Of a DNA stretch of 64,000 nucleotides, positions 9,424-29,290 are shown one piece after another. Position numbers and translations under genes: made by a program. This stretch comes from Streptomyces sp. HUAS CB01 (GTDB taxonomy: Bacteria; Actinomycetota; Actinomycetes; Streptomycetales; Streptomycetaceae). Location: assembly GCF_030406905.1 (NCBI RefSeq), contig NZ_CP129137.1:5290001-5354000 (forward strand). The letters are read 5' to 3'. How positions within the stretch are numbered: position 1 is the first letter of the stretch; every line of letters starts with the position of its first letter. The notes under the pieces were generated by a model that saw nothing but the letters and a program-made list of their open reading frames with translations, did not search any database and had not been told where the DNA came from.

Positions 9424-9894
9424 ATGCCCGGATCGACTGCGGGCTCCTGGGCCGCGGGCACTCGCGGGCCGACGCCCTGATCGGCCGTCGGAGAGGCCGG
9501 GCCGCCGGCGCCCGGCGCCTCGGCCCCGTCGGCCCGGGCGGGCGCGGAGGCCCGGCCGGCCTTCTGGAGATCTCCGCCTGTCCGGCCCGACAGCCCGGAC
9601 GCGCGAGCGCCCGGGGTCGGCGCGTCCGGCCCTGACTCCCCGTGCATGAATTCCGGCCTGAGCGGCACGTACGGCCTGCACCGCCCGGGCAACCGCGTTC
9701 CGTCCACCGGACGACCCCACCGGTCGCCACCGGTCGACCTGCCCGGCGCAGCAGACGCACCGGGCGCACGGGGCCCACGAAGAGCGCCGGAACGGGCCTG
9801 CGCGCGGGTGCACCACCGCACGCCGCGCACCGCCGCACTACGCCTTTCGGCCGATGCCGTAACACCCCCACGCGGAGCAGGTGTTGAGGGAGCA

Positions 9895-9940
9895 TTGACA
9901 GCCCAAAACTGCCCGGCTACTTTCGGCCCAGGCCGAAAGT
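9895..9940 (+). promoter_or_regulatory. promoter and palindromic operator of the ABC importer operon
   Basis: TTGACA (9895-9900) and TACTTT (9918-9923) are separated by 17 bases, an excellent promoter for the importer operon. Overlapping the -10 is the near-perfect palindrome TTTCGGCCCAGGCCGAAA (9921-9938). Flanking GCCCGGC and GCCGGGC extend the symmetry, so the whole block can also fold as a hairpin. The core matches three other sites near 15837, 19834 and 21331. Placement over the -10 predicts repression. Confidence 0.82.
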
Positions 9941-9991
9941 GCCGGGCTCTTCGCTCGTTTCCCCAGGTCCCCAGGGCTTCCGGAGGCCCCC

Positions 9992-11254
9992 ATGAAGACA
10001 GGGTTCAAGCGCGCCACCGTTCCTCTCGCACTGCTCACGCTCACCACGCTCACGGCCGCCGGCTGCGGCGGCGACAGCGGCGCCGAGTCCAAGAAGGTCA
10101 CCGTCTGGATGTACCCGGTGATCATGGATCCGAAGGCCAACACCGCGTACTGGGACGGGATCGAGAAAGGGTTCGAAGCCCGGGAGAAGGGCGTCGACCT
10201 CAGCATCGAACAGCTGCCCTGGGAGAACCGGGACCAGAAGCTCGCCACCGCCTTCGGCAGCGGCAAGGGCCCGGACGTCGTGCTGCTGGGGCCCGACCAG
10301 ATTCCCCAGTACCAGGCCAACGGGGCGATCCAGCCGGTCGACCGGGCCATCGAGGAGGCCCGGAGCGCCTTCCGCCCGAACGCCCTGCAGGCCATGAGCC
10401 AGGACGGCAAGGTCTACGCAGCACCGATCTACCACACCGTCACCAGCACGCTCTACAACAAGAAGCTGCTGGAGAAGGCGGGTATCACCGAGCCGCCCGC
10501 GACCTGGGACGCCATCAGGGCCGCGGCCCCGAAGCTGAAGCAGGCCGGCGCGTCCACCCTCGACTACTCCGCCAGCAACGAGGCCTCGCTCAACATGAGC
10601 TTCTACCCGCTGCTCTGGCAGGCGGGCGGAAAGGTCTTCGACGACGGCGGCGGCAAGGCCGCCTTCAACGGCCCGGAGGGCGTCGAGGCGCTCACCTTCC
10701 TCGTCGACCTCTACAAGAGCGGGGCCGTGCCGAAGTCCGCCATGAACAACGCCAACCTCTTCACCGACCAGGCGCTCGGCAAGCAGCAGGTCGCCATGGG
10801 CTACACCAACACCCCCGCCGACGCCGTACTGGCCGAGAAGGCGTGGGGCAAGGGCAACGTCATCGTCGGCCCGGCCCTCACCGGCCCCGGCAAGCAGGTC
10901 TGCTTCGGCATGCCCGGCGGGCTCGGCATCAACGCCAGGTCCAAGAACGTGACGGGGGCCGAGAAGTTCATCGCCTACATGGTCGAGCCCGCGCAGATCG
11001 AGTCCATGGGCAGGGCGGGCGGCTTCTTCTCGCCGCGGACCGATGTGACGGTCCCGAACGACAGCACCTACGCCAAGGAGTACCAGGAGGCGCTCGAACA
11101 CACCTATCCGGGTGAGCCGAACCCGGCGGCCCGTCAGCTGATGGCGCTGATCAGCCCGGAGATCCAGGCCGCGCTGACCGGGAAGAAGAGCCCCAAGGCG
11201 GCCCTGGACGCGGCCGCCGCCGAGGCCGACGAGCTGCTGGCGCGTCAGCGTTGA
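9992..11254 (+). CDS. extracellular sugar-type substrate-binding lipoprotein
   Basis: A 420-residue family-1 solute-binding protein of a carbohydrate ABC importer. It has a basic n-region, a hydrophobic core and a lipobox ending AAGC at about residue 25, so it is a lipoprotein on the outer face of the membrane. The mature part has the SBP1 pattern: VTVWMYPVI at the start, LATAFGSGKGPDVVLLGPDQIPQY, then YAAPIYHTVTSTLYNKKLLEKAGI. The ATG at 9992 follows GGAGG by five bases. Substrate is unknown. The two permeases follow with overlapping starts, and no ATPase gene is present. Streptomyces sugar importers commonly share the MsiK ATPase encoded elsewhere. Confidence 0.92.
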   Translation: MKTGFKRATVPLALLTLTTLTAAGCGGDSGAESKKVTVWMYPVIMDPKANTAYWDGIEKGFEAREKGVDLSIEQLPWENRDQKLATAFGSGKGPDVVLLGPDQIPQYQANGAIQPVDRAIEEARSAFRPNALQAMSQDGKVYAAPIYHTVTSTLYNKKLLEKAGITEPPATWDAIRAAAPKLKQAGASTLDYSASNEASLNMSFYPLLWQAGGKVFDDGGGKAAFNGPEGVEALTFLVDLYKSGAVPKSAMNNANLFTDQALGKQQVAMGYTNTPADAVLAEKAWGKGNVIVGPALTGPGKQVCFGMPGGLGINARSKNVTGAEKFIAYMVEPAQIESMGRAGGFFSPRTDVTVPNDSTYAKEYQEALEHTYPGEPNPAARQLMALISPEIQAALTGKKSPKAALDAAAAEADELLARQR

Positions 11255-12270
11255 GGAAGACCGCCACCGACGAGGTCGCCCCGGACGAGGGCGGCGGGCC
11301 GCCCGGAGCGAGCGGCCCGCCGCCCGGGGCCGAGGCAACGGGCCCCGGAAAGCGGAGCGGCGGGGGCCGCCCCGCCCCCGGGGCCGCCGGGGCGCGGAGC
11401 CGGATCCTGCGGCGGCGCGAGGCACTGGCCGGTCTCGCGTTCGTCGCGCCGATGCTCGCGCTGTTCATCGTGTTCCGCTTCGGGCCGACGCTCGGAGCGG
11501 CGTTCCTCTCCGTCACCGACTACCGGCTCAGCGGGGAATGGACCTTCATCGGCGCCGGGAACTACACCCGGCTCCTCGGCGACGACCTGTTCTGGGAGAG
11601 CCTCGGCGTCACCGCCGTCTACACGGTCCTGTACGTGCCGATGACCGTCGCCCTCGCCCTCGGCACCGCGGTCCTGCTCCATCGCACCCTCTGGCTGCGC
11701 GGCTTCTTCCGCGGGCTGTTCTTCCTCCCGTACGTCACGAGCATCGTGCTGGCCGCCGTCATCTGGAAGTGGATCTACGAGGTCCAGGACGGCCTGCTCA
11801 ACGCCTCCCTCGGCGTCCTCGGTATCGGCCCCGTCGACTTCCTCGGCAGCGAGTCACTGGTACTGCCGTCCATCGCCGCCGCCTCGGCGTGGAAGGGCTT
11901 CGGCTACTCCATGCTCATCCTGCTCGCCGGACTCCAGTCCATCCCCCGCGAGGTCACCGAGGCCGCCACCATCGACGGCGCGAGCGGCTGGCAGCGCTTC
12001 CGATGGGTGACCCTGCCCCTGCTGCGCCCGGTGCTGTTCTTCGTCCTCGTGATCGAGGCGATCCTCGGCTTCCAGGTCTTCGACGCGATGTACGTCATGA
12101 CGGCCGGCGGCCCGGTCCGCGCCAGCTACTCGCTCGTGTACTTCCTCTACGACGCCGGCTTCAAGTTCTTCGACTTCGGCTACGCCAGCGCGGTCGGCCT
12201 CGTCCTGTTCCTCGTCGTCCTCGTCTTCTCGCTCGTCCAGCGGCGACTCATCGGAAGGGACACGGACTGA
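11251..12270 (+). CDS. ABC sugar importer permease, MalF/UgpA type
   Basis: A 339-residue inner-membrane permease with six predicted membrane helices after a Gly/Pro-rich cytosolic tail of about 50 residues. The EAA loop that contacts the ATPase is present (EVTEAATIDGASGWQRFRWVTLPLLRPV). The TTG start (11251) overlaps the previous stop as TTGA, and no other start precedes the first membrane helix. It forms a heterodimer with the next gene product. Confidence 0.88.
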   Translation: MRKTATDEVAPDEGGGPPGASGPPPGAEATGPGKRSGGGRPAPGAAGARSRILRRREALAGLAFVAPMLALFIVFRFGPTLGAAFLSVTDYRLSGEWTFIGAGNYTRLLGDDLFWESLGVTAVYTVLYVPMTVALALGTAVLLHRTLWLRGFFRGLFFLPYVTSIVLAAVIWKWIYEVQDGLLNASLGVLGIGPVDFLGSESLVLPSIAAASAWKGFGYSMLILLAGLQSIPREVTEAATIDGASGWQRFRWVTLPLLRPVLFFVLVIEAILGFQVFDAMYVMTAGGPVRASYSLVYFLYDAGFKFFDFGYASAVGLVLFLVVLVFSLVQRRLIGRDTD

Positions 12271-13172
12271 TGGCGACCCCCTCCACGTCCGCCGAGCGGT
12301 CCGTGTCCCCCGTGCCCGCGCCGTCCTCCGCACCTCCGGCCGGGACCGCGCGGCCCCCTCGGCGGGCGGCGGCCCGGCTCGGACTGCCCGTGCTGCTCGT
12401 CCTGGTCGCCGTCGTGACCGTGACACCGTTCGTCGTCATGGTGCTGGTGGCGTTCGCCCCCGCCGGCGGCCAGACCCTCCCGGGCGCCCTGGACGTCACC
12501 CGGGCCACGTTCGCCAACTTCACGGACGTCCTGGAGAACGCCGACGTCACCCGCTGGGCCGTCAACTCGCTCATCTACTCGCTGGTGTCGGTGCTGCTCA
12601 TCCTGCTGTTCTCGTCCATGGCCGGCTACGCGTTCGCCAAGAAGCGCTTCCCCGGCCGCGAGATCCTTTTCTGGTCCTTCCTGGCGACGCTGATGGTGCC
12701 GTTCCAGGCCACCCTGATCCCGTACTACATCCTCGTCTCGGAGCTGGGCGGCGTGGACACGTACTGGGGCCTGATCGTGCCGACGCTCGCGAACTCGCAG
12801 GCCGTGTTCCTGATGCGCCAGTTCATCGTGCAGCTGCCCGACGAGCTGTTCGAGGCCGCCAGGATCGACGGGGCGTCGGAATGGCGCATCTACACGACCG
12901 TCGTGGTGCCCCTGATCCGGCCCGTGCTCGCCACGCTCGGCGTGTTCGTCTTCCTGTGGCACTGGAACGACTTCCTCTGGCCACTGGTCATCGGCCAGTC
13001 TGAGGAGATGCGCACGCTCACCGTGGGACTCGCCACTCTGGAGGGGGAGAACGTGGCGATCAACCAGATCATGGCCGGCGCGACCATCACCGTCATCCCC
13101 TGCCTCCTCGTCTTCGGACTGCTCCAGCGCTACCTCACCGACTCGATCGCCACCTCCGGGCTCAAGTCGTGA
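12270..13172 (+). CDS. ABC sugar importer permease, MalG/UgpE type
   Basis: A 300-residue permease, second half of the importer. After a Pro/Ala-rich tail it has six membrane helices, the MalG-type EAA loop (LFEAARIDGASEWRIYTTVVVPLIRPV) and the conserved WNDFLWPLVI. The ATG at 12270 shares a base with the previous TGA (TGATG), so it is tightly coupled. It continues with a GTGA overlap into an amidohydrolase-like gene, which links uptake to a catabolic step. Confidence 0.9.
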   Translation: MATPSTSAERSVSPVPAPSSAPPAGTARPPRRAAARLGLPVLLVLVAVVTVTPFVVMVLVAFAPAGGQTLPGALDVTRATFANFTDVLENADVTRWAVNSLIYSLVSVLLILLFSSMAGYAFAKKRFPGREILFWSFLATLMVPFQATLIPYYILVSELGGVDTYWGLIVPTLANSQAVFLMRQFIVQLPDELFEAARIDGASEWRIYTTVVVPLIRPVLATLGVFVFLWHWNDFLWPLVIGQSEEMRTLTVGLATLEGENVAINQIMAGATITVIPCLLVFGLLQRYLTDSIATSGLKS

Positions 13173-13891
13173 CCCTCGCCGCGCCGGCCGTGGTCGACGT
13201 CAACAGGGTCCTCGGCCCGCTGCCCCACGACGACGTGCCCAGCCGCGACGAGATCGGACTGGTCAAGGAACTGGAGCGGCTGCGGATCGACTCGGCCTGC
13301 GTCGTGCACTCCCACGCCGTGTACGGGGACCCGCGCGACGGCAACGCCCGGCTGGCCCGCACCGCCGACGAGCGGCTGCTGCCCGTGCCCGTCCTCGTGC
13401 CCGGCCCGCTGGGGACCGGTGACTGGACGGGCGGCGGCGCCCGGCTCGTCCGGCTCTGCCCCGACGTCCACGGCTGGGCCGCCACCGGGCCGGGCGCGCT
13501 GTGCCTGACCGCGGCACTGTCCCGGGCCGGCGTCACGGTGCTGCTCGCCTGGGACGCCGTCACCGCCACCGACGTCGACCTGCTCGCCGGCAGCCGGCCG
13601 CGTCTGAGGATCGTCCTCACCGGAACGGGCCACCGCAGCCTGCGCGAACTCGCCGAACTCCTCGACACCCACGACCAACTGCACGTCGACACCTCCACGC
13701 TCGCCGGACACCGCCAGGTGGAGTGGTTCGCCGAGCGGTACGGAGCCCACCGCGTGCTGTTCGGGACCGGCGCGCCCGTCACGGACGACGCCGGCCCGCG
13801 CCATCTCCTCGACACCCTCGACCTGCCGGACGAGGACACGGCCCTCATCGCCGGCGGCAACGCCCTGCGGTTCCTCGGGAGCCCGGCATGA
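13169..13891 (+). CDS. degenerate amidohydrolase-2-like protein
   Basis: A 240-residue TIM-barrel protein resembling amidohydrolase family 2 but shortened and without its metal site. Where intact members have D-x-H-x-H at the first strand it reads VVDVNRVLGP. Where they have a final Asp (FGSD or FGTD) it reads LFGTGAPVTDD. A GTG start (13169) overlaps the permease stop by four bases, and its own stop overlaps the next ATG by four bases. The next gene is an intact member, so a regulatory or structural partner role is plausible. It is probably not a hydrolase by itself. A very similar pairing occurs at 17149-18665. Confidence 0.7.
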   Translation: MTLAAPAVVDVNRVLGPLPHDDVPSRDEIGLVKELERLRIDSACVVHSHAVYGDPRDGNARLARTADERLLPVPVLVPGPLGTGDWTGGGARLVRLCPDVHGWAATGPGALCLTAALSRAGVTVLLAWDAVTATDVDLLAGSRPRLRIVLTGTGHRSLRELAELLDTHDQLHVDTSTLAGHRQVEWFAERYGAHRVLFGTGAPVTDDAGPRHLLDTLDLPDEDTALIAGGNALRFLGSPA

Positions 13892-14766
13892 CGGCGGGCG
13901 ACACGGGACCGGCCGGCGCCCCGCGCACCCGGGGCGGGCAACAGGGACCGCTGCCGGGACCGGTCGGCGCCTTCGGGCCCCGGACCGGCGGACCGGCGGG
14001 AGGCCACCGGCCGCGTGTGGTCGACGCCCACGGCCACCTCGGGCGCTGGCACGCCTTCGCCATGACCGACGGCTCCGCCGCCGGACTGATCGCCATGATG
14101 GACCGCTGCGGAGTCGCCAGCGCCTGCGTCTCCCACCTGCTGGCCGTCGGCCCCGACGCCCGCGCCGGCAACGCCCTCCTGCTGGACGAACTCGCCGCGC
14201 ACCCCGGGCGCCTGCTCGGCTACGCGGTCTACAACCCGCACGACCCCGAGGCCGCGCCCCGGTTGCGGGACCTGCTCGAGGTGCCCGGCGTCGTCGGCGT
14301 CGAACTCCATCCCGAGGTCCACGAACTCGCCCTCGACCACCCCGCCTACACGCCCGCCTTCGAGGCCGCCGCGGACCACGGCCGGATCGTCCTGGCGCAC
14401 AGCCGGCACGGCAGCCGCCACTCCGGAGTCAGCCGCTTCACGGCCGTCGCACCGCGCCACCCGGAGGTGCCGCTGCTCATGGGCCACGCGGGACTGCTCC
14501 CCGAGGGCCGCGCACCCGCCGTGGAGGCCGCCGCCCGCTGTCCGAACCTGGTGCTGGAGACCTGCGGCTCCCTGATGACGGCACGTCATCTCGTGCGGCT
14601 CGTCGCCGAGACCGGGGCGCACCGCATCGCCTTCGGCTCGGACGCCGCCTTCCTCGACCTGCGTATCGGTCTGGGCCGGGTGCTGCTGGCCGACCTCGAC
14701 GAGCCGGACCGCGAGCAGATCCTGCACGGCACCATGGACGCCCTGCTGAACGGCTCCCGCCGCTGA
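13888..14766 (+). CDS. amidohydrolase family 2 protein (metal site intact)
   Basis: A 292-residue amidohydrolase-2 TIM barrel. Relevant families are lactonases, decarboxylases and ring-opening hydrolases. Visible metal and catalytic elements are HGH in VVDAHGHLGRW (strand 1), LAHSRHG, LLMGHAGLL and the final Asp in IAFGSDAAF. About 45 N-terminal Gly/Pro-rich residues precede the barrel. The ATG at 13888 overlaps the previous stop (ATGA). A downstream start closer to the barrel cannot be excluded. Last gene of the importer operon and convergent with the LLM oxidoreductase gene. Confidence 0.82.
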   Translation: MTAGDTGPAGAPRTRGGQQGPLPGPVGAFGPRTGGPAGGHRPRVVDAHGHLGRWHAFAMTDGSAAGLIAMMDRCGVASACVSHLLAVGPDARAGNALLLDELAAHPGRLLGYAVYNPHDPEAAPRLRDLLEVPGVVGVELHPEVHELALDHPAYTPAFEAAADHGRIVLAHSRHGSRHSGVSRFTAVAPRHPEVPLLMGHAGLLPEGRAPAVEAAARCPNLVLETCGSLMTARHLVRLVAETGAHRIAFGSDAAFLDLRIGLGRVLLADLDEPDREQILHGTMDALLNGSRR

Positions 14767-14839
14767 GCACGCCGGTCCGGCCGGCCCGTTCCGGCCGCGG
14801 TCGCACGCGGTTCGCCGCCGTGAGGCGCGGCCCCTCGCG

Positions 14840-15808
14840 TCAGACGCCGAGCTCGCCGAACGCCTCGATGGCACGCAGCGCGTCCGCCTGCGGCATCCCT
14901 GGCGGCTGAACCCGCAGGACCAGTCCGTCCGCGCCCATCTCGGCGTACCGGCCGATCCGTTCCCGGCACTCGTCGGGCGAGCCGATCACCGAACGGGCCG
15001 CGATGTCGTCCCACTGCTGGGCGTACCGTGCCGCGTCCGCCGAGGTGCGCTTCCAGTCGCCGTACGCGTCGTACAGCCCCCGCAGCGGCCGCTCCAGCGC
15101 CGCCCGCGCCCGCTGGGTGGTGGCGGCCGCGTATCCCTCACGGCAGACGATGACCTCGGCGCCCAGGGAGGCCGGACCCTGCGGGTACGACCGGTAGGCC
15201 CGGATCTTCTCCGGGAGTTCCGCGTCCGTCTCGTTGAAGGACGTCGTCCAGCCGTCGCACATCCGGGCCGTGCGCTCCAGCGCGGCGGGCACACGGCCGC
15301 CGTTCCAGATCCGGGGCCGCGGGTCCTGCACGGGCCGCGGCGACAGGTACGCCCCCTCGACCCGGGTCCAGCGGCCCTCGAACGTCACCTCGTCGCCGGT
15401 CCACAGCCGGGTGAGCAGTTCCAGGCACTCCTCGAAGCGCGGTACGCGTTCCGCGGGCCGGGTGCCGAACAGGGTGAACTCCTCGGGCCGGTAGCCGAGG
15501 ACGAACCCGGCGGTGAGCCGGCCGCCCGACAGGACGTCGATGTGCGCCAGCGTCTCGGCGAGCCACACCGGCTGGTAGACGGGGGCGATCAGCCCGGCGG
15601 TCGCCAGCCCGATCCGCTCGGTGTGCGCGGCGAGATAGGCCAGGGAGGTGAGCGCCTCGTGGTAGCCGGGCCGGTGCAGATGGCGCTCGCCCAGCACCAC
15701 CCAGGAGAACCCGGCCTGTTCGGCGAGCCGGACCTGCTCCACCGCGTCGGCGAGCCGGGGCCGGTCCGCCTTGTCCGCGTAGAGGTTGACGTAGAGGCCG
15801 AGGCGCAT
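14840..15808 (-). CDS. LLM-class (luciferase-like, F420-type) oxidoreductase
   Basis: A 322-residue luciferase-like monooxygenase-superfamily protein. It shows the family signatures near the N-terminus (AEQAGFSWVVLGERH), the strand IGLATAGLIAPVYQPVWLAE, and DVLSGGRLTAGFVLGYRPEEF. In actinobacteria this class mostly uses coenzyme F420 for hydride transfer (sugar-phosphate, alcohol or imine substrates). Some members use FMN. The ATG at 15806-15808 lies 17 bases from a perfect palindrome shared with the divergent DapA-like gene, so both should respond to the same regulator. Substrate not inferable. Confidence 0.85.
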   Translation of the reverse strand: MRLGLYVNLYADKADRPRLADAVEQVRLAEQAGFSWVVLGERHLHRPGYHEALTSLAYLAAHTERIGLATAGLIAPVYQPVWLAETLAHIDVLSGGRLTAGFVLGYRPEEFTLFGTRPAERVPRFEECLELLTRLWTGDEVTFEGRWTRVEGAYLSPRPVQDPRPRIWNGGRVPAALERTARMCDGWTTSFNETDAELPEKIRAYRSYPQGPASLGAEVIVCREGYAAATTQRARAALERPLRGLYDAYGDWKRTSADAARYAQQWDDIAARSVIGSPDECRERIGRYAEMGADGLVLRVQPPGMPQADALRAIEAFGELGV

Positions 15809-15824
15809 CAGGGCGGAATCCCTT

Positions 15825-15848
15825 CCTTTACGGTCCGGACCGTAAAGG
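15825..15848. promoter_or_regulatory. palindromic operator between divergent genes
   Basis: A perfect 24-base palindrome whose core is TTTACGGTCCGGACCGTAAA (15827-15846). It lies between the LLM oxidoreductase gene and the DapA-like gene and could repress both. Same motif family as the sites at 9921, 19825 and 21322. Confidence 0.85.
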
Positions 15849-15891
15849 CTAGCGTAGCGGCGACGACCGCAACAGACGGGAGAGAACACCC

Positions 15892-16860
15892 ATGTCTGCG
15901 ACGGACCTGCTGGTGCGCCGGCTCCGCGGCACCGTGCTGCCCGCGGTCGCAACCCCCATGGACGCGCGGGGAGTCGTCGACCTCGCGGCCCTGCGCGGCT
16001 ACGCCGGACGCATCGCGGCCCAGCCGGTCGGCGGAGTCGCCGTGTGGGCGCACACCGGCCGGGGGCTGTACCTCTCCGAGGAGGACCGCCGCCGGGTCCT
16101 CGGGGTGTGGCGGTCGGCGGTGGAAGGGCCGGTCGTGGCGGGCGTCGGCGTGCCGCGGTCCGTGCGCGCCGAACGGCCGCGCGACGCGGTGGCCGCCACG
16201 GTCGCCATGGCGGTACAGGCCGCCGAGGGCGGCGCGGACGCCGTCATGGTCTACCCGTCGGCCCTGCTGGCCGGTGACGAGGACGCCGCAGTCGCCCTCC
16301 ACGAGGAGGCGGCCGCGGCGAGCGGGCTACCCGTGCTCGGCTTCTTCCTGCACGGCGAGGCGGGCGGATACCCCTATCCGCCGCGGCTGGTCGGCAGGCT
16401 CCTCGGACTGCCGGCCGCGGCCGGCCTCAAACTCGCCACCCTGGACCGGGCGATGGCCTGCCAGGACGCGATCAGGGCGGCGCGGCCCACCGGCAAGCTG
16501 GTCATCACCGGCGAGGACCGGATGTTCGGGCCCTCGCTGATGTGGGGCGCCGACTCGGCCCTCGTCGGCATCGCGGCCGCCCGCGTACCGCTGACGACCG
16601 CGGTGCTGGACGCCTGGCGCGCGGGTGACCACGCGGCGTTCGTCCGGGCGTCGGCGCGGCTGGACGCCTTCGCCGAGGCCACCTTCCTCGACCCGATCGA
16701 GGGCTACGTGCAGCGCATGCTGTGGGCGGCGGTCTGGGAGGGCGCCGTCCCCGAGGAGGCGGCGCACGATCCGTACGGTCCGGACCTGCCCGACGCCGAG
16801 CGCCGGGCCGTGGTCGACTGCCTGGAGCGGCTCGCGAAGGAGCCGGACGAGGCCCGCTGA
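15892..16860 (+). CDS. DapA-family (dihydrodipicolinate synthase-like) aldolase/lyase
   Basis: A 322-residue class I aldolase-type TIM barrel of the DHDPS/NAL family. The N-terminal signature TVLPAVATPMDARGVVDLAAL and the Schiff-base lysine in AGLKLATLDRA are visible. The second catalytic residue (Tyr in the family) appears not to be in a standard YNxP; the local sequence is FFLHGEAGGYPYPP, so chemistry may differ from true DapA. Family members cleave or form 2-keto-acid adducts. Lysine biosynthesis is unlikely in this context. The ATG at 15892 follows GGGAGAG. Confidence 0.85.
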   Translation: MSATDLLVRRLRGTVLPAVATPMDARGVVDLAALRGYAGRIAAQPVGGVAVWAHTGRGLYLSEEDRRRVLGVWRSAVEGPVVAGVGVPRSVRAERPRDAVAATVAMAVQAAEGGADAVMVYPSALLAGDEDAAVALHEEAAAASGLPVLGFFLHGEAGGYPYPPRLVGRLLGLPAAAGLKLATLDRAMACQDAIRAARPTGKLVITGEDRMFGPSLMWGADSALVGIAAARVPLTTAVLDAWRAGDHAAFVRASARLDAFAEATFLDPIEGYVQRMLWAAVWEGAVPEEAAHDPYGPDLPDAERRAVVDCLERLAKEPDEAR

Positions 16861-17000
16861 CGGGGCGGCGCGGGCCGCCTCCGGCGAAACGAGCCGTCCC
16901 GGTGGGTGCGGGCCCGGGAGCTCCGCGTGGCGGCCGCCGGAGCGTGGCGGTCGACGACGGGCACCGGGGTCTGCCGCGAGGCCGGGGTTCCGGCCCCGGG

Positions 17001-17076
17001 GAGCGGGGCCCTGTCGTGGGGCCGGTTCCGGCGGCCGGGGGAGCGGGCCTTGTCGTGGGGCCGGTTCCGGCGGCCG
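17001..17076. repeat. two tandem copies of a 36-37 base unit
   Basis: Copies at 17001-17037 and 17041-17076, differing by one indel and one base. They lie in the 288-base spacer between the convergent DapA-like and amidohydrolase genes. A third partial match (GGAGGGAGCGGGCC) follows. Confidence 0.8.
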
Positions 17077-17121
17077 CGCCGGAGGGAGCGGGCCCTGCCC
17101 GGCTCCAGACGTCCGGGAGAG

Positions 17122-17147
17122 GGCTCTCCCGGACCTCGGGGAGAGCC
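17122..17147. terminator. bidirectional terminator hairpin
   Basis: GGCTCTCCC (17122-17130) and GGGAGAGCC (17139-17147) form a perfect nine-pair stem with an eight-base loop. It sits between convergent genes and abuts the stop codon of the amidohydrolase at 17149. Confidence 0.75.
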
Positions 17148-17148
17148 G

Positions 17149-17889
17149 TCAGACGGGGACCTCGAGCCCGAACAGCTCCGCCGCGTTGCGCCACAGCACC
17201 CGGTCCAGTTCCGCCGGGGTGAACCCGGCGTCCCGCAGCACGCCCAGCGACCAGCAGGGGTCGATCAGCGTCGCGTCCGTGCCGAACAGCATCCGCTCCA
17301 CGGGCACCCCGGCCTCGCGCGCGTACGCGACCCGCCCCGCGTCGGCGGCGGTACGGCAGTGCTCCAGGTACAGCCCCTCGCACGAAGCGGCCGCGTGCGC
17401 CGCCTCGCGCCACGCGTCCCCGCCCGCGTGGCCCATGATCACCCGAAGTCCCGGGCGCGACGCCACCATGTCGGGCAGCTGGGTGACCTCCCGCCCCCAG
17501 GTGTGCAGCAGCAGCGGTACGCCCGCCTCGGCGACCACGTCGAACGCCTCGGCCATCTCCCGCGAACCGGGCAGCCGCCCCGGATAGTGCGTGTGGATCT
17601 TCGCGCCGACGAACCGCCCGGAGTCCAGGCAGCGGCGCAGGTCCGCGGCGCTCTCCTCGATCCGGTTCGGGTTCACCACGGCGTAGCCGTACAGGCGCGG
17701 CCGGGACGCCAGTTCCTTCATCAGCGCCGCGTTCCCGGCGACCGCGTCGTACACCACCGCCTCGGACGCCGACACCAGCTGGAGGTCGATGCCGTAGCGG
17801 TCCATCAGGCGCAGGTTGTCGTCCGCGTCGCCGCAGCTGAGGTGGAACTGCCAGCGGCCCACATGGGCGTGCACGTCGATGATCGGCAT
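17149..17889 (-). CDS. amidohydrolase family 2 protein (metal site intact)
   Basis: A 246-residue amidohydrolase-2 barrel with the full ligand set: HAH in IIDVHAHVGRW, His in LLLHTWG, MGHAGGDAW and the final Asp in LFGTDATLID. It starts at ATG 17887-17889, sharing one base with the stop of the upstream degenerate homologue (TGATG). Third gene of the DegT operon. Family members include sugar lactonases and metal-dependent decarboxylases. The exact substrate is unknown. Confidence 0.85.
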   Translation of the reverse strand: MPIIDVHAHVGRWQFHLSCGDADDNLRLMDRYGIDLQLVSASEAVVYDAVAGNAALMKELASRPRLYGYAVVNPNRIEESAADLRRCLDSGRFVGAKIHTHYPGRLPGSREMAEAFDVVAEAGVPLLLHTWGREVTQLPDMVASRPGLRVIMGHAGGDAWREAAHAAASCEGLYLEHCRTAADAGRVAYAREAGVPVERMLFGTDATLIDPCWSLGVLRDAGFTPAELDRVLWRNAAELFGLEVPV

Positions 17890-18665
17890 CAGCTCAGCAG
17901 CTCCTCGATGTTCCTCGTGGCGATGGCCTCGCGCTCGTCGTCGGAGATGTCCGCGTACCGCAGCCGCAGCGTGAGCGGCGAGATGTCCATGAACGGGGTG
18001 CGCGAGCCGAAGACGAGATGACGCGCCCCCACCGAGTGAACGACCCGTTCGACGGAGTCGGGACCCGACAGCATCCGCGTCGTCACCCGGAACCCCGGCT
18101 CCTCGCGCGCCATCAGGAGGAAGTCCGCCAGCAGGTACGCGTGCAGGTCCAGGAAGACCACATCGGCGCCCCGGCCCATCAGGGGAGGGCCGTAGCGGCG
18201 CGGGTCACCGTCGTGGAGCAGCACCAGCCCGCGCGCCAGGGCCAGATCGACGACCCGCCGGTAGCCGGGGAAGCCGGGGTCGGTGGCCTGCTCGACGGTG
18301 AACAGACGCAGGAAGCGCACCCCCGCCGCCGCCAGCTCGTCCAGCCGGTCCTCGGCGGTCAGCGCGTCCCGGACGTCGACGGTGCCCACCGGCAGCAGCT
18401 CCGGGCAGTCCGCCAGGTCGCGCAGCGTCTCCTCGTTGCCCGCCCGGTCGTCGAAGAGCGGACCGCGCGTGGACAGGGCGAGCGCCCCGCACACGGGGGA
18501 GCGGTCCAGGCGCCGGCGCACCTCCGCGAGCGGGATGTCCCGGTGGTGCCGGGGCCACGGCCCGTACAGCACGTCCACGTCCCAGCCGATCTGCTCCCGC
18601 GGGGACGGCGTCAGCCACTCGTACGCGGCGGGCCGGTCGTGCGCCGTCGTCGTGCTCGTGCTCAT
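17889..18665 (-). CDS. degenerate amidohydrolase-2-like protein
   Basis: A 258-residue relative of the neighbouring amidohydrolase. It lacks HxH at strand 1 (IGWDVDVLYGPWPRHH) and has FGSRTPF where the catalytic Asp should be. The ATG (18663-18665) overlaps the stop of the DegT gene (ATGA). As at 13169-14766, the degenerate copy lies directly upstream of an intact one. This suggests a conserved pseudoenzyme/enzyme pair rather than decay. Confidence 0.7.
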   Translation of the reverse strand: MSTSTTTAHDRPAAYEWLTPSPREQIGWDVDVLYGPWPRHHRDIPLAEVRRRLDRSPVCGALALSTRGPLFDDRAGNEETLRDLADCPELLPVGTVDVRDALTAEDRLDELAAAGVRFLRLFTVEQATDPGFPGYRRVVDLALARGLVLLHDGDPRRYGPPLMGRGADVVFLDLHAYLLADFLLMAREEPGFRVTTRMLSGPDSVERVVHSVGARHLVFGSRTPFMDISPLTLRLRYADISDDEREAIATRNIEELLS

Positions 18666-19795
18666 CGCGCTCCCACCTCGCCCAGTGCCCGGGCGATACG
18701 GTCGACGTCGTCCTCGGTGTACGCCTCGTTCCACTGAAGCACCAGCAGCGTACGGTCGATCAGCGTCTCCGCCCGGGGACACGGGCCCGGCGGATGGCCG
18801 GACAGTGCCGGATTGGCGTACAGCGGCCGCTCCAGATAGCCCGGCAGCGCCGGCACGCCCGCGGTCCGAAGCCCCTTCGCCCAGCGGGAGTTGTCGTCCA
18901 CCAGCAGCGGCATCACCCACCAGGCGTGCCCGGCCCGCCGCGTGGGGAGACGGACCTCGGCGGCCGGCCCGAGCCCCGCCACGGCCGCCGCGAACCGGGC
19001 GGCCCGCTCCCGCCGTACCCGTACGACCTCGGCGACCCGGGTGAGCTGGGCCCGGGCGACCGCCGCGGCGAGCTCCGTCATCCGGTAGTTCAGACCCATC
19101 GTGCGGTGGATGCGGCCCTCCGTGCGGTCCCAGCCCTTGTCCATGAACAGCCGCATCCTGCGGGCCAGTTCCGGGTCGTCCGTGATGCTCAGGCCGCCGT
19201 CGCCGGCCGTGATGTGCTTGTACTGCTGGAGGCTGAAGCAGGCGATGTCGCCGACGGTGCCGAGCAGCCTGCCGTCCTCGTCCTCGCCCAGCCACGCCTG
19301 CGCGCAGTCCTCGATCAGCAGCACCCCGTGCCGGTCGCAGATCTCCCGCAGCCGGACCACGTCGGCGGCACCGCCGAAGAGGTGGACCGCGACGACGGCG
19401 CGGGTGCGGGGCGTGATCGCCGCCTCGACCGCGGCCGGATCGAGATTGCCGTCGTCCGCCCGTACGTCCGCGAACACGACCGTGGCGCCCTGGGCGAGCA
19501 CCGGCGCGACCGTGCCGAAGTCCGAGATCGGGGTGGTGACGACCTCGTCCCCGGGACCCACCCCGGCAGCGGCGACCGCGAGGTGGAGCGCGGCCGTGCC
19601 GGAACTGGACGAGACGGCCTCGGCACGCCCGTACAGCGCCGCCATCTCGGCCTCCAGCGCCCGGGTCTCCCCGCCGAACGCCCCGCACAGGACCGCCGAG
19701 TCGAGGACCCGCAGCACCGCTGCGCGCTCCTCCTCGCCGAAGGTCCTGCCGCGCGGTTCGAGAACTGTGGGCAGTGGCATTTCCCGTTGCGGCAT
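18662..19795 (-). CDS. DegT/DnrJ/EryC1/StrS-family PLP aminotransferase
   Basis: A 377-residue fold-type I PLP enzyme of the sugar-aminotransferase family. The PLP lysine is in SLQQYKHITAGDGG. Other family features are SSSSGTAALHLAVAAAGVGPGDEVVTTP and LLIEDCAQAWLGE. Members transaminate keto-sugars or cyclitols, or dehydrate them. ATG at 19793-19795 is chosen; GAGG lies upstream, and a longer frame starting MCCRE would begin inside the promoter region. First gene of a three-gene coupled operon with two amidohydrolase-2 proteins. Confidence 0.88.
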   Translation of the reverse strand: MPQREMPLPTVLEPRGRTFGEEERAAVLRVLDSAVLCGAFGGETRALEAEMAALYGRAEAVSSSSGTAALHLAVAAAGVGPGDEVVTTPISDFGTVAPVLAQGATVVFADVRADDGNLDPAAVEAAITPRTRAVVAVHLFGGAADVVRLREICDRHGVLLIEDCAQAWLGEDEDGRLLGTVGDIACFSLQQYKHITAGDGGLSITDDPELARRMRLFMDKGWDRTEGRIHRTMGLNYRMTELAAAVARAQLTRVAEVVRVRRERAARFAAAVAGLGPAAEVRLPTRRAGHAWWVMPLLVDDNSRWAKGLRTAGVPALPGYLERPLYANPALSGHPPGPCPRAETLIDRTLLVLQWNEAYTEDDVDRIARALGEVGAR

Positions 19796-19824
19796 CGGGG
19801 GATTATCCTCTCGGCAGCACACGA

Positions 19825-19868
19825 TTATGGCCTGGGCCGAAACTAGGACTCCCGTGGTCGGTCGTCAA
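19825..19868 (-). promoter_or_regulatory. promoter and operator of the DegT operon
   Basis: On the minus strand, TTGACG (19863-19868) and TAGTTT (19840-19845) are 17 bases apart. The palindrome TTATGGCCTGGGCCGAAA (19825-19842) overlaps the -10, the same geometry as at the importer promoter. The site is also upstream of the divergent regulator gene at 19970, so it may serve autoregulation. Confidence 0.8.
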
Positions 19869-19969
19869 TCACGCGCGAACCGCCCGCGACACGCGTCCCC
19901 GGCCCGCCGGTAGCGTGCGTCCTCCCCCCCAGGTCGTCGTCGCGACCCCAGCAGAACGGAGACCGGGCC

Positions 19970-21202
19970 ATGCCGCTCACGGTCGGCGTGATAGGCCCCG
20001 AGGACCTGGTCCGCAAGGTGGTCGCGGTCGGCGGCCAGGCGGGCCCGGGCCGGCTGCTGCCGCTCCCGTACCGCCACGAGGCCGAGACGACGGACGTCGT
20101 CACCGGAGCCGGCTCCACCGCGGACGCCCTGCTGTTCACCGGAGTCGTCCCGCACAGTCTCGCCGCGGCGGCGGGCGTCCTCGACCGCCCGGCGATGTAC
20201 GTGCCCTACAGCGGCGCCACCCTGCTGCGGGCCCTCGTCGAACTGCTCCGCCTCGGCCACGACGTGTCCCGTGTCTCCATCGACACCCTCCGCCGCGACG
20301 AGGTGCTGGAGACGCTCACCGAGGCGAAGCTCCCCACCGAGCACATACAGGTCCTGCCCTACCGGCCCGGCCTCACCTCCCAGGACCTCGTCGACTTCCA
20401 CCTCGACGCGCGCGACACGCGGAAGTCGAGGGTCGCGATCACCTGCCTCGGCTCGGCGTTCCACGTCCTGGAGCACCGGACCCACGCCGTACGGCTCGCC
20501 CCCTCGCGTCACTCCATCCTCGCGACCCTCCAGGCCCTCGCCCTCGCCACGGCGGGGCAGCACAGCGGTGACGCCCAGGTCGCCCTCGGCGTCATCGACC
20601 TGCCCGGCGCGGACGACCGGCTGGCCGACGACGTAAGGATCCTCGGCGGCAGCCTCGCCGCACTGCCCGACGGCCGGCGGCTCGTCGTCACCACCCGGGG
20701 CGTGCTCGAGAAGGCCACCGACCGGTTCACCCGCATCCCCTTCCTCGACGTCCTCGCCGCCCGGCACGGCACCGCCCACGTCGGCTTCGGCCTCGGGCGC
20801 ACCGCCGCCGAGGCCGAGGCCCTCGCGCGCCGCGCGGTGAACCGGGCCCGGTCCGTCGGCGCCGCCGCGGGCGTCGTGTCGATGACCGACGACGTCGACA
20901 TCGTCATCGACGGCGCCGTCGGGGACACCGAGGGCGAGACCGCCCCTGCCGGCGGAGCCGCGCTGCTGGCGCGGCGCACCGGCATCAGCCCGCAGACCCT
21001 CGACCGGCTGCGTGAACTCGCCTCCGGCGACCGGGGGGAGGGGCTGACGGCGCACGCCGTCGCCGAGCACCTGTCCGTGCAGCAGCGCACGGCGCGCCGG
21101 ATACTCAAGCGGCTGGAGCGCGCGGGTGTCGCCGTCCCGACCGGCATCCGCCAGGAGGGTCAGACCGGCCGGCCGCCCATCGTGTACCGCGTGCGGCTGT
21201 AG
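19970..21202 (+). CDS. multidomain transcriptional regulator with C-terminal winged helix
   Basis: A 410-residue protein that I cannot place in a named family. The N-terminal 1-230 looks like a Rossmann-like sensing module (LTVGVIGPEDLVRKVVAVGG; AMYVPYSGATLLRALVELLRLG). Residues about 235-310 resemble a degenerate GGDEF or nucleotide-cyclase fold, ending VGFGLGRTAAEAEALARRAVNRA. The C-terminal 60 residues form a winged helix (AVAEHLSVQQRTARRILKRLERAGV) and a basic wing. It is the only regulator in the cluster and lies beside one of the four shared operators, so it is the best candidate to bind them. ATG 19970 follows GGAGA. Confidence 0.75.
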   Translation: MPLTVGVIGPEDLVRKVVAVGGQAGPGRLLPLPYRHEAETTDVVTGAGSTADALLFTGVVPHSLAAAAGVLDRPAMYVPYSGATLLRALVELLRLGHDVSRVSIDTLRRDEVLETLTEAKLPTEHIQVLPYRPGLTSQDLVDFHLDARDTRKSRVAITCLGSAFHVLEHRTHAVRLAPSRHSILATLQALALATAGQHSGDAQVALGVIDLPGADDRLADDVRILGGSLAALPDGRRLVVTTRGVLEKATDRFTRIPFLDVLAARHGTAHVGFGLGRTAAEAEALARRAVNRARSVGAAAGVVSMTDDVDIVIDGAVGDTEGETAPAGGAALLARRTGISPQTLDRLRELASGDRGEGLTAHAVAEHLSVQQRTARRILKRLERAGVAVPTGIRQEGQTGRPPIVYRVRL

Positions 21203-21321
21203 CCCGGCGCGCTGCGGGCGGGGGTGGCGCTTCCGCAGGGGCGGCGCCGTCCGGGGCGGCGGACCGGGCGCGGCCGCGCCCTCCGCCGCCGCCCGTTTGC
21301 GTACGACCGTCGCGAGGGAAG

Positions 21322-21339
21322 TTACGGTCCGGACCGAAA
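21322..21339 (+). promoter_or_regulatory. operator upstream of the enolase-superfamily gene
   Basis: TTACGGTCCGGACCGAAA is the fourth copy of the shared palindrome. A weak -35 (TTGCGT, 21297-21302) sits 17 bases before AGTTAC (21320-21325), so the operator again overlaps the likely -10. Confidence 0.75.
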
Positions 21340-21366
21340 CGACGCCTGCGAAGGAGCTGAGCCGGC

Positions 21367-22452
21367 TTGAAGATCGCCTCGTTCCACACCCGAGTGGTCC
21401 GCGCCCCCTACCGCCGCCCGTTCGCCATCAGCAGCGGAACCAGCCCCGAACTCGTCAGTCTGCTCGTCGAGGTACGCACGACCGACGGGGCGTCCGGCTT
21501 CGGCGAGGCCTCACCGATGACCGCGTACACGGGAGAGACCCTGGCCGGCCTGCGCGCCGCCCTCACCGAGCACGCCGCGCCCGCCCTCATCGGCCGCGAC
21601 CCGCGCGATCTGGCCGGGGCGCACGCGGCCATGGACGCCGCCATCCGCGGCCAGCACCTGGCCAAGGCCGCGCTCGACCTCGCCCTCCACGACCTGGCCG
21701 CCCGCGCCGCCGACTGGCCCGCGCACTTCCTCCTCGGCGGGGCCGTCACCCATCGCGTGCCCACCACCTGGGTCGTCGGACTCGGCAGCATCGCGGAGAG
21801 CGTCGAGGAGGCCGCGCGGTACGCCGAGTACGGCTTCCCCCACATCAAGCTCAAGGGCGGTGAGGACCCCGAGCGGGACGTCGAACTCGTCGCCGCCGTA
21901 AGGAAGTCCGTCCCCGACTCCGTGTCGCTCTCCCTCGACGCCAACGAGGGCTACGCACCCGGCAGCGCGCTCCGCACGGTCGCGCGCCTCGCCGACGCCG
22001 GGCTCGACCTGGTCGAACAGCCCCTGCCCCGCTGGGACCTGGCGGGGCTCGCCGCGCTGCGCGCCCAGGGCGGCGCACGGGTGATGGCCGACGAGTCGCT
22101 CCAGTCGCTCCACGACGCGCTGGAGATCGTGCGCCGTGGCGCCGCCGATGTGCTCAACATCAAGATCCTGAAGGTCGGCGGCCTCCACCGGGCCCGTCAG
22201 ATCGCCGCCGTCGCCGAGGCGGCCGGTCTGGCCGTGAAGATCGGCTCCATGCCGGAGCTCGGCGTCGCGACCCTGGCGGCCGCCCATCTCTCCGCGGCCC
22301 TCCCGCACGCCACGGTCCCGCCCGACCTGGTCGGCCCCCTGCTCGTCGAGCAGGAGCCGCTCGCCCCGGAGACCTTCGCGGCGACGAGCGGCACGGGCCA
22401 CGTCCAGCTCCCGGACCTGCCCGGGCTGGGGCACCGCCTGGCGCCCCTGTGA
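21367..22452 (+). CDS. enolase-superfamily enzyme (mandelate racemase/MLE, KxK subgroup)
   Basis: A 361-residue member of the muconate-lactonising-enzyme subgroup. It has an N-terminal capping domain (VRAPYRRPFAISSG) and a barrel with KxK in FPHIKLKGG. Metal ligands are in SLDANEGY, VEQPLP and MADES, and the second general base is Lys in LNIKILKVGG. Subgroup members include dipeptide epimerases, N-acylamino acid racemases, OSBS and cycloisomerases. Sugar-acid dehydratases normally carry different acid/base residues, so dehydratase activity is not supported. TTG at 21367 follows AAGGAG by 10 bases. It is a monocistron under the shared operator. Confidence 0.87.
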   Translation: MKIASFHTRVVRAPYRRPFAISSGTSPELVSLLVEVRTTDGASGFGEASPMTAYTGETLAGLRAALTEHAAPALIGRDPRDLAGAHAAMDAAIRGQHLAKAALDLALHDLAARAADWPAHFLLGGAVTHRVPTTWVVGLGSIAESVEEAARYAEYGFPHIKLKGGEDPERDVELVAAVRKSVPDSVSLSLDANEGYAPGSALRTVARLADAGLDLVEQPLPRWDLAGLAALRAQGGARVMADESLQSLHDALEIVRRGAADVLNIKILKVGGLHRARQIAAVAEAAGLAVKIGSMPELGVATLAAAHLSAALPHATVPPDLVGPLLVEQEPLAPETFAATSGTGHVQLPDLPGLGHRLAPL

Positions 22453-22460
22453 GCGAGGCC

Positions 22461-22489
22461 GGGCCGGTACGCCGCCGGCGGACCGGCCC
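22461..22489. terminator. bidirectional terminator hairpin
   Basis: GGGCCGGT (22461-22468) and ACCGGCCC (22482-22489) bracket an inner GC-rich stem. Lies between the convergent enolase-superfamily and sbnA genes, and marks the border of the biosynthetic locus. Confidence 0.65.
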
Positions 22490-22561
22490 CGCACATCGGC
22501 CCGGCCCGCCCGGCCGTCACCCCGTCCCCAGGTCTCGGACGCTCCCACGTCCTGCGCGTCC

Positions 22562-23650
22562 TCACCCGCCGCTGCGGCGCCGGTGGCGTCTGCGGGCCGC
22601 GCGGTCGCCCGTCCGCAGGTGCGGACGCCGGCCGCCCGGCGACGGTGCCGGCGGGGGAGCGGTGGGCAGGATCCAGGACTCGGCGTTCGCCGGCTCGGGT
22701 TCGAGGATGTCGTCACCGTAGAGTCCGTGCAGCCAGTTGGTCTGGTACACGGTGTCGAGGTAGCGCTCGCCCAGGTCGGGCGCGATGGCCACCGCCGTGC
22801 GCCCGTCGCCGCCGTGCTCCGCGAGCCAGCCCATCGCACCGCTGACGACCGTGCCGGTGGAGCCACCGAACAGGAAGCCGCGGCGGGCCAGCCGGTGGCA
22901 GGCCCGGATGGTGTCCCGTTCCTCGACGCGGATCACCTCGTCCACGAAGGACTCGTCGAGCAGCGGAGGACGGATGCTCATCCCCAGCCCGGGGATCATC
23001 CTGCGCCCCGCCTCACCGCCGAAGGAGACGGAGCCGACGCTGTCCACCGCGACGATCCGCACCGGCCGGTGCCACTCGCGGAAGAAGCGGGCACAGCCCA
23101 TCAGCGTGCCGGTGGTCCCGGCGCCGATGAACAGTGTGTCCAGTTCGGGGAACTGGCGTGCGATCTCCGGCGCCGTCCTGCGGTAGTGCGCCTTCCAGTT
23201 GCCGGGATTCGTGTACTGGCTGAGCCACACGTACCGGCTGTCGGAGGCGCACAGCGCACGGAGGTAGTCGATCCGAGCGCCCAGGAAACTGCCGTGGGCC
23301 TCCTGGCCGGCGATGACGTGCACCTGGCTGCCCAGGGCCTCCATCATCAGCCGGGTCGTCAGATTGCAGCGGGAGTCGGTGACGCACAGGAACTTGTAGC
23401 CCTTACTCGCCGCGATCATGCTCAGCGCCACACCCAGGTTGCCCGAGGAGGACTCTACGAGGATCGAATCCGGCGTCAGGACTCCGTCCCGCTCGGCGCC
23501 CTCCACCATCTCGATCGCGGCCTTGAGCTTGATCGAGCCGGCGAAGTTGAAGCCCTCGCACTTCAGGAAGAGCGAGCGCCCGAATATCGACTCGAGGTCG
23601 ATGTAGAGATCGTCTTCGTTGAAGTCTTGGGGAACGGATATGACAGGCAC
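22562..23650 (-). CDS. sbnA: SbnA-type N-(2-amino-2-carboxyethyl)-L-glutamate synthase
   Basis: A 362-residue fold-type II PLP enzyme of the cysteine-synthase family, SbnA branch. SbnA condenses O-phospho-L-serine with L-glutamate, the first step to L-2,3-diaminopropionate. Visible are the PLP lysine in FAGSIKLKAAIEM, the substrate loop ESSSGNLGVALSM, the phosphate-binding GAGTTGTLMG and the C-terminal GGSTGTVVSG. The GTG start (23648-23650) follows AGGAGG by five bases, and the longer upstream frame lacks homologous sequence. The C-terminus carries an unusual Arg-rich tail (ending RRHRRRSGG). The sbnB partner is directly upstream. Confidence 0.9.
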   Translation of the reverse strand: MPVISVPQDFNEDDLYIDLESIFGRSLFLKCEGFNFAGSIKLKAAIEMVEGAERDGVLTPDSILVESSSGNLGVALSMIAASKGYKFLCVTDSRCNLTTRLMMEALGSQVHVIAGQEAHGSFLGARIDYLRALCASDSRYVWLSQYTNPGNWKAHYRRTAPEIARQFPELDTLFIGAGTTGTLMGCARFFREWHRPVRIVAVDSVGSVSFGGEAGRRMIPGLGMSIRPPLLDESFVDEVIRVEERDTIRACHRLARRGFLFGGSTGTVVSGAMGWLAEHGGDGRTAVAIAPDLGERYLDTVYQTNWLHGLYGDDILEPEPANAESWILPTAPPPAPSPGGRRPHLRTGDRAARRRHRRRSGG

Positions 23651-23792
23651 GATGGCCTCCTCGTCTGCAGTGGACCCGTGGGGCCCCTGCGTCAGCGGCC
23701 GTGGTGTGGTCCGTGGTGCTACGGAGACTTGACCCTTGTTCTCTCCTGGGGACCAGTCCTGCAATGAGCCTCCTCACTGGCTTCCGGGCAGC

Positions 23793-24911
23793 TCAGCCGT
23801 ACCGGTGCAGTTCGTGGAAGAAGCCGTCGACGACGTGCAGCCCGCCGGAGCGCGCCACCTCGTCGTAGACCCATGCGCCGACCGCGAGGTCCAGCACCCC
23901 GAGACCGAACGGCGAGAAGACCACCGGCCGGTCCGCCGGGACCGTCAACCGGCCGGCGATCACGTCGTCGAGCGTGCCGTCCAGGAAGGCACGGCCGCCC
24001 GTCCGCTGCTCCGCCAGGTGCGCAGAGGTGTCCGCCGTGAGGCAGTGCTCGACGTCGTCCACCACATTGGCCGAGGCGAGCAGGATCTCCGGGGCGAGAT
24101 CGCGCAGGGAGACGTGCAGCACCAGCGGGTTGTGCGCGAACCACGCCGGGTCCGTGACGTGCGGCTTCGCGGCGACGGTCGCGAAGACCAGCAGGTCGCT
24201 GAAGCGGATCAGCTCCTCGGGGTCCTCGTGCACGCTGATCCGGCCCGCCGTGCCCGACTGCTCCAGGTAGCAGCGGAACCCGGCCGCGCTCTCCGGCGCC
24301 ACGTCGTGCACCCCGATCTCGTCGAACGACCAGCCGGTGCCCGCGAGAAAGGTGTGGATGTAGCGGGCGATCAGACCGGTGCCGAAGAACCCGACCCGCG
24401 TCGGGCGCCCGGCCGACCGGCCCCGGCTGAGCCGGTCCGCCGCCAGCGCCGCCGAGGCCGCCGTCCGGGTCGCGCTGATGATGGAGCTCTCCAGGCAGGC
24501 GAAGGGGTAGCCGGTGTCGTGGTCGTTGAGGATCAGCACCGCGGAGGCGCGGGGGAATCCGGACTCCACGTTCGCCGGGAAGCTGGAGATCCACTTGATG
24601 CCGTCCACCCCGGACTGCCCGCCGAGCGACGCCGGCAGCGCGATGATCCGCGACGCCGGACGGTCGGGGAAGCGCAGGAAGTACGAGGCCGGACTGACCG
24701 TACGTCCCTCGCCGTGCAGCCGGTACGTGGCCTCGACGAGCTCGACGATCCGCTTCTCGTGGCCCTGCAGCGCACGCTGCACCTGCACACCCGGGATCAC
24801 CGCGAACGACGGCGCGGTCCCGGGGCTGCTGTCCCGGTCGCCCGGGCTGTGCGGGCGGGGCTTCACGGATTCCACGGCGGACTCCGTCCCGCTGTTTCGG
24901 ACGGTGGTCAT
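23793..24911 (-). CDS. sbnB: SbnB-type 2,3-diaminopropionate synthase (ornithine cyclodeaminase family)
   Basis: A 372-residue NAD-dependent enzyme of the ornithine cyclodeaminase/mu-crystallin family. SbnB oxidatively hydrolyses the SbnA product to L-2,3-diaminopropionate plus 2-oxoglutarate. Family elements are GGQSGVDGIKWISSFPANV, the Rossmann GFFGTGLIARYIHTFL, and LHVSLRDLAPEILLASANVVDD. The ATG at 24909-24911 overlaps the stop of the dioxygenase gene (ATGA). A 142-base gap separates it from sbnA, which has its own ribosome site. The sbnA/sbnB pair is diagnostic for a diaminopropionate building block. Confidence 0.92.
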   Translation of the reverse strand: MTTVRNSGTESAVESVKPRPHSPGDRDSSPGTAPSFAVIPGVQVQRALQGHEKRIVELVEATYRLHGEGRTVSPASYFLRFPDRPASRIIALPASLGGQSGVDGIKWISSFPANVESGFPRASAVLILNDHDTGYPFACLESSIISATRTAASAALAADRLSRGRSAGRPTRVGFFGTGLIARYIHTFLAGTGWSFDEIGVHDVAPESAAGFRCYLEQSGTAGRISVHEDPEELIRFSDLLVFATVAAKPHVTDPAWFAHNPLVLHVSLRDLAPEILLASANVVDDVEHCLTADTSAHLAEQRTGGRAFLDGTLDDVIAGRLTVPADRPVVFSPFGLGVLDLAVGAWVYDEVARSGGLHVVDGFFHELHRYG

Positions 24912-25915: not shown

Positions 25916-25937
25916 CTCTTTTCCTTTCGGTCGCGGC

Positions 25938-29276: not shown

Positions 29277-29290
29277 CGGCACGTCCCTCC

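Follow-up and report, generated by a model that had tools for sequence, protein, structure and literature searches.

Local repressors that are released by a ligand control many carbohydrate gene clusters, with the LacI, ROK and DeoR types as examples. Regulators of the GntR type place their winged helix-turn-helix (HTH) at the N-terminus. In contrast, the PucR/CdaR architecture has a C-terminal DNA-binding domain and includes HTH_30 and GGDEF-like domains. Here we analyzed a stretch of 64,000 nucleotides from the genome of Streptomyces sp. HUAS CB01 (contig NZ_CP129137.1, positions 5,290,001 to 5,354,000; hereafter the window). It contains a cluster of importer and catabolic genes, the gene of a regulator with a C-terminal winged HTH (REG; 19970..21202, + strand), and a recurring palindromic operator. 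As in a local autoregulated repressor regulon, one operator is common to the units of the cluster and to the regulator's own promoter region. The sequence evidence makes it very probable that REG, a member of an apparently undescribed family, acts on these sites as a local repressor that also controls its own gene.

Four palindromes are present in the window, each an exact match to TTWYGGYCYRGRCCGWAA on the + strand. Operator 1 (9921..9938) precedes the importer, operator 2 (15828..15845) is common to the divergent genes of a luciferase-like oxidoreductase (LLM) and a DapA-like enzyme, operator 3 (19825..19842) lies between the genes of a DegT-family aminotransferase and REG, and operator 4 (21322..21339) precedes the gene of an enolase-superfamily enzyme (ENO). 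The original prediction, made from the sequence alone, had named these four sites (its position 15827 for operator 2 is the start of a 20-mer; the 18-mer starts at 15828) but overlooked a fifth, degenerate copy, TTTCGGCCGATGCCGTAA (9845..9862; 2 mismatches), located 76 bp upstream of the importer operator; close relatives retain this copy in full or nearly so. When as many as 3 mismatches are allowed, the window holds 12 strand-matches, compared to 1.18 expected and a maximum of 6 over 100 shuffles. A matrix derived from the four sites scored >18 in the window only at the four operators and the 9845 copy, while 284,809 bases of control DNA contained four sites >12, one >14 and none >16. In the complete genome (8.1 Mb), all 4 places with the exact consensus are inside the cluster; as the original prediction had anticipated, unrelated places have no such hits. 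Allowing up to 2 mismatches gave 7 places (backward control, 0), 5 in the cluster (the fifth being the 9845 copy) and 2 elsewhere. The latter were taken as chance: 4918205 (2 mismatches) lies between open frames and has no counterpart among the matches listed for genomes G273 and G230, and 5208837 overlaps an open frame.

Conservation of the sites was analyzed in relatives. A protein scan provided 22 named loci, including Kribbella and Actinomadura; after exclusion of named loci that repeated a G-numbered assembly, the conservation set comprised 28 genomes with 29 stretches (Streptomyces, Kribbella and Actinomadura). A site was counted when it scored >18 within about 320 nt upstream of a gene, and two starts of the substrate-binding protein gene (SBP) that had no upstream sequence were dropped. 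By this measure, sites were present in front of 136 of the 150 genes that lead a unit and of none of the 121 internal genes, whereas 60 column-permuted matrices gave a mean of 0.017 and a largest value of 1. The counts for individual genes were 18/18 for SBP, 26/26 for LLM, 25/25 for DegT, 26/28 for REG, 22/26 for DapA and 19/27 for ENO. In the four loci where DapA was missed (L042, L045, L046 and L051), DapA lies behind ENO and the operator is found before ENO. The claim of a site upstream of each transcription unit holds for all six units of the window, and in relatives the site before ENO is the least conserved. Orthologous units carry the site in other species and families; the proposed regulon is not restricted to Streptomyces but extends to Kribbella and Actinomadura.

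The 94 sites of the conservation set represent 36 distinct operators. Bases 1, 2, 5, 6, 13, 14, 17 and 18 are nearly fixed and the center is variable, perfect palindromes having the center CCGG in Streptomyces and CTAG in Actinomadura. Sites scoring >12 inside a mapped gene are rare (3/108), each being in a REG coding sequence: a stretch in G047 (L031; codons for GFGLGRT) scores 17.9 and similar stretches in G006 and L053 score 12.4, all of which we took as chance. In Nonomuraea and two f21 genomes, genes judged by eye to be NAD-epimerase-like and additional DapA-like ones also have a site in front. In relatives, genes of secreted-looking beta-propeller proteins, with a variant operator, lie ahead of the importer (for example L040:1395-3488 and L046:1594-3621); the proteins give weak propeller-type Pfam matches only. 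This gene, PROP1, is preceded by a site >12 in 7/7 cases and >18 in 2/7. The window lacks a propeller gene, and the 9845 copy is possibly the remnant of the operator of one that was lost.

The repeats might alternatively be RNA hairpins, or chance or repeat DNA, rather than protein sites, since they are inverted repeats of which an RNA copy could fold. However, they are fixed relative to promoters and partly lie within the -10 element, and one site serves two divergent genes. Moreover, neither shuffles nor permuted matrices reproduce the sites, and together with the genome search and the control DNA they rule out chance or repeat DNA as their origin. Taken together, we consider this explanation extremely unlikely.

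Among 295 Streptomyces genomes, 11 (including the own genome) contain a REG match, ten of them close (at least 69% identity) and one at 28%. The match in G034 is 96% identical to REG, and that in G006 consists of two pieces with 84 and 77% identity. DegT, at E 1e-100 or better, occurs in 10/295 genomes, the same ten that have a close REG. The exact consensus was found in 6 of 199 genomes: in G000, G006, G034 and G047, which are all the genomes with a close REG in this set, and as single matches in G007 and G043 (L058 and L059), with no cluster genes within 12 kb. In G047 the cluster is split: REG, DegT, ENO and the amidohydrolase-type genes AH3 and AH4 are found near 3.54 Mb, and the importer genes together with AH1, AH2, LLM and DapA near 4.85 Mb. 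The two parts are 1.3 Mb apart on one contig and operators are kept in both, as expected for action in trans. The true site family is broader than the exact consensus, which misses variants in other REG carriers. In the nine REG genomes among the matches listed, a looser pattern, TTNYGGYCYNGRCCGNAA, has 36 exact places, of which 35 lie in the cluster; for genomes without a close REG, exact places occur in G005 and G007 (12 of 20 genomes listed).

Does the site follow REG? Relatives of REG were sought by protein sequence alone and sites were scored afterwards. A plasmid collection contained three relatives, from Nonomuraea (45% identity), Prescottella equi (43%) and Bacillus badius (26%). The Nonomuraea locus (L096) has strong sites at 5220, 13957 and 17396. 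In Prescottella, TTTCGGTCAGGACCGTAA (26 bits) lies in the promoter region from which the serine ammonia-lyase and REG genes diverge and adjoins MFS, oxidoreductase, M20 and DapA-like genes, neighbors that largely differ from those in the window. No site >14 was present in the Bacillus badius locus, nor in the stretches searched around the distant regulator relatives in G583 (palindrome listing) and G008. The best match of each of 28 further genomes with a locus (L101-L128) served as a further test set. In a tree of 38 proteins, 22 members of one clade of 24 (support 99/99) carry the operator ahead of the REG gene or of the operon that contains it, compared to 0/14 outside the clade (score >12); the 14 outside proteins also differ in HTH sequence. 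Of the 22, 20 score >12 within 500 nt, and the others are L112 (score 10.7, accepted on visual inspection) and L097, where the site lies before the operon. The exceptions in the clade are L046, with sites elsewhere in the locus, and L116; note that the placement of L097, L098 and L116, which form long branches, is uncertain. The site thus follows the REG clade even where neighboring genes change, in agreement with the proposal of a linked regulator. This link is a correlation, not binding.

A different possibility is that the protein binding the sites is an unlinked regulator, the best candidate being DasR. Its dre site has the consensus A(G/C)TGGTCTAGACCA(G/C)T (PMC4398421). The GGTCTAGACC core of dre is also present in the Actinomadura operator and is identical to TTACGGTCTAGACCGTAA in L042. 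However, the T and A on either side of the dre core, corresponding to positions 4 and 15, occur in 0/36 distinct operators, 29 of which have C and G there. The own genome contains 22 dre-like places, none of them in the window, and the distribution of the sites with the REG clade likewise argues against DasR. We rejected DasR as the binder on the basis of the site sequence, and regard control by a regulator coded elsewhere as very improbable.

The position of the operators points to repression. The importer promoter, TTGACA-17-TACTTT (9895..9923, + strand), and the DegT promoter, TTGACG-17-TAGTTT (19840..19868, - strand, read 19868-19840), both overlap their operators, the first bases of which are the last three bases of the -10. 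In relatives, the importer operator lies behind TTGACA, spaced by 17 or 18 nt from TACTTT, TAGTTT or TGCTTT, in 18/19 cases (the 19th has no upstream sequence). The DegT operator lies behind TTGACG or TTGACC in 25/25, with TACTTT, TAGTTT or TAATTT in 23/25. The overlap that had been claimed, with its 17-base spacing, is thus borne out at the importer and DegT sites, as in a local autoregulated repressor regulon; the ENO site at 21322 has no clear promoter. Overlap with the -10 at these two promoters is a repressor-type position. REG could also be the binder but an activator, or both repressor and activator, given that it has a sensor-sized N-terminal region and that the DapA-side promoter is unclear and the operator may sit upstream of the DapA -10. 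The position at the importer and DegT promoters speaks for repression instead, and we regard activation as unlikely.

Because the site follows REG across relatives, REG and the site most likely form an on/off switch for the use of a compound that is probably sugar-like. We infer that REG, most probably dimeric, would recognize an 18-bp palindrome similar to TTNCGGYCYRGRCCGNAA, occupying the four strong sites and perhaps the one weak site. At the importer and DegT promoters, where the site extends from the last bases of the -10 into the sequence immediately after it, REG on its site would stand in the way of RNA polymerase. A metabolite derived from the imported substrate may then bind to the unclassified N-terminal region of REG and cause it to leave the operator. 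Its departure would switch on 12 genes in six units (SBP-permA-permB-AH1-AH2; LLM; DapA-like; DegT-AH4-AH3; REG; ENO), consistent with the original prediction of a shared-site regulon of 11 to 12 genes. Judged tentatively from the gene families, the pathway would import and degrade an amino-sugar or cyclitol-like compound.

Several observations weigh against repression by REG at these sites or narrow its scope. With one mismatch to the looser pattern, REG genomes have 5-14 forward hits and others 1-17, among the matches listed; the ranges overlap, indicating that specificity is lost at this level, while the exact consensus is specific. The conservation counts are not independent, because divergent genes share sites and the genomes are related. 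REG lacks the site in 2/28 cases, the Kribbella loci L046 and L051 (both with sites elsewhere in the locus), and ENO in 8/27 (G231, L039, L040, L041, L043, L044, L050 and L055). Of ten regions at the 20-kb scale, five have sites and five do not. The latter include two tandem pairs of REG paralogues (L134 and L135; 39-40% identity; not included in the tree) and L136 (around L116). No site >12 was present in 20 kb for the tandem pairs (G823 and G868) or for G1011 (44-45% identity). The operator therefore marks a part of the REG family and not all of it. The paralogue pairs in L134 and L135 adjoin several beta-propeller genes. Finally, a generic sigma-70 scan of 9700-22700 yields no promoter, because the importer and DegT -10 elements fit TATAAT at just 3/6 positions; these promoters are supported by their conservation rather than by the generic scan. 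LLM and ENO have no clear promoter in the promoter comparison.

The HTH of REG (residues about 330-390) matches generic HTH Pfam families only, with HTH_23 just above the cut-off. Residues 1-331, searched as two pieces, gave no Pfam match up to E 10. No NCBIfam model scored above cut-off for REG or four relatives, and a sequence search of solved structures returned a single match at E 0.44. The structure model is weak (mean pLDDT 61.5, pTM 0.35) and we therefore claim no fold match, although this low-confidence model suggests that the N-terminal strand-helix order may be beta-alpha-beta-beta-alpha-beta. A diverse profile detected REG relatives in 60/374 Actinomycetes genomes and also in Bacillus. 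Thus, the family is unclassified in Pfam and NCBIfam beyond the generic HTH. Literature searches for the motif, gene set and regulator type (regulon databases not covered) returned no apparent description of the operator or the REG family, and four hits contained no more than a 12-base fragment, in line with the initial view that the consensus is undescribed in Streptomyces.

The importer genes encode a sugar-type ABC substrate-binding protein (SBP; 9992..11254, + strand; PF01547) and the ABC permeases permA (11251..12270, +) and permB (12267..13172, +; both PF00528); the cluster genes scanned with Pfam did not include an ATPase gene. They are followed by AH1 (13169..13891, +), which is amidohydrolase-like but without the HxH motif, and the amidohydrolase AH2 (13888..14766, +), both PF04909. 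LLM (14840..15808, - strand; PF00296) and the DapA-like gene (15892..16860, +; PF00701) diverge. The amidohydrolase AH3 (17149..17889, -; PF04909), the amidohydrolase-like AH4 (17889..18680, -; without HxH motif or Pfam match, but aligning with AH1-AH3) and DegT (18662..19795, -; PF01041) precede REG, and ENO (21367..22452, +; PF13378 and PF02746) follows it. In a motif check of all copies, window included, both the HxH metal motif and the FG-[ST]-D aspartate are absent from AH1 (11/11) and AH4 (20/20), and both are kept in the partners AH2 (9/9) and AH3 (20/20). AH1/AH2 and AH4/AH3 are thus predicted to be two pairs of a catalytic and a dead amidohydrolase. A second DegT-family gene, missing from the window, follows AH2 in 9 relative stretches (e.g. 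L027:6730-7851), so that relatives seem to have two copies of a module composed of an amidohydrolase pair and DegT. Adjoining the regulon (22562-30095) are genes that we take, by eye, to encode a PLP-dependent enzyme resembling SbnA, an SbnB-like protein and an NRPS-like protein; among the loci compared, SbnA-/SbnB-like genes lie beside the regulon only in close relatives.

On balance we lean slightly towards a broader reading, that REG founds an uncharacterized transcription-factor family, with an undescribed sensor region and a C-terminal winged HTH, and that its operator clade controls an undescribed two-module catabolic pathway. Each module would consist of an amidohydrolase, its metal-motif-less homologue and DegT, combined with secreted beta-propellers and a sugar-type importer. 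REG and its sharp 18-bp site provide a bench-ready pair that marks targets in several actinobacterial families, and the sharpness of the site makes the regulon assignable in further genomes. Fusions of the operator to a reporter could reveal the ligand and hence the substrate of the pathway. If correct, this would be the first target set for a regulator family that these databases leave unclassified.

How does this system compare with those described? The GntR/HutC repressors DasR and NagR likewise use a palindromic operator, with a core of the GG-TCTAGA-CC type, and regulate the uptake and degradation of sugars at a local or global level; the flanks of dre are T/A, in contrast to C/G in the cluster operators. 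Unlike DasR and NagR, REG carries its HTH at the C-terminus and has no significant GntR match (best E 0.16, in 3 of 8 members), so that the REG system has neither the GntR winged HTH nor the dre operator. In the C-terminal location of its DNA-binding domain REG resembles the PucR/CdaR type, with an N-terminal fold order predicted at low confidence; its listed Pfam matches include a winged HTH and no HTH_30 or GGDEF-type models. The REG family also differs from the LacI, ROK and DeoR types in being unclassified beyond the generic HTH. Nevertheless, the cluster shares with local ligand-released carbohydrate repressors a linked regulator gene, an operator before each unit and a site for autoregulation. 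Thus, while the regulator family and its operator appear to be undescribed, the control logic itself is ordinary.

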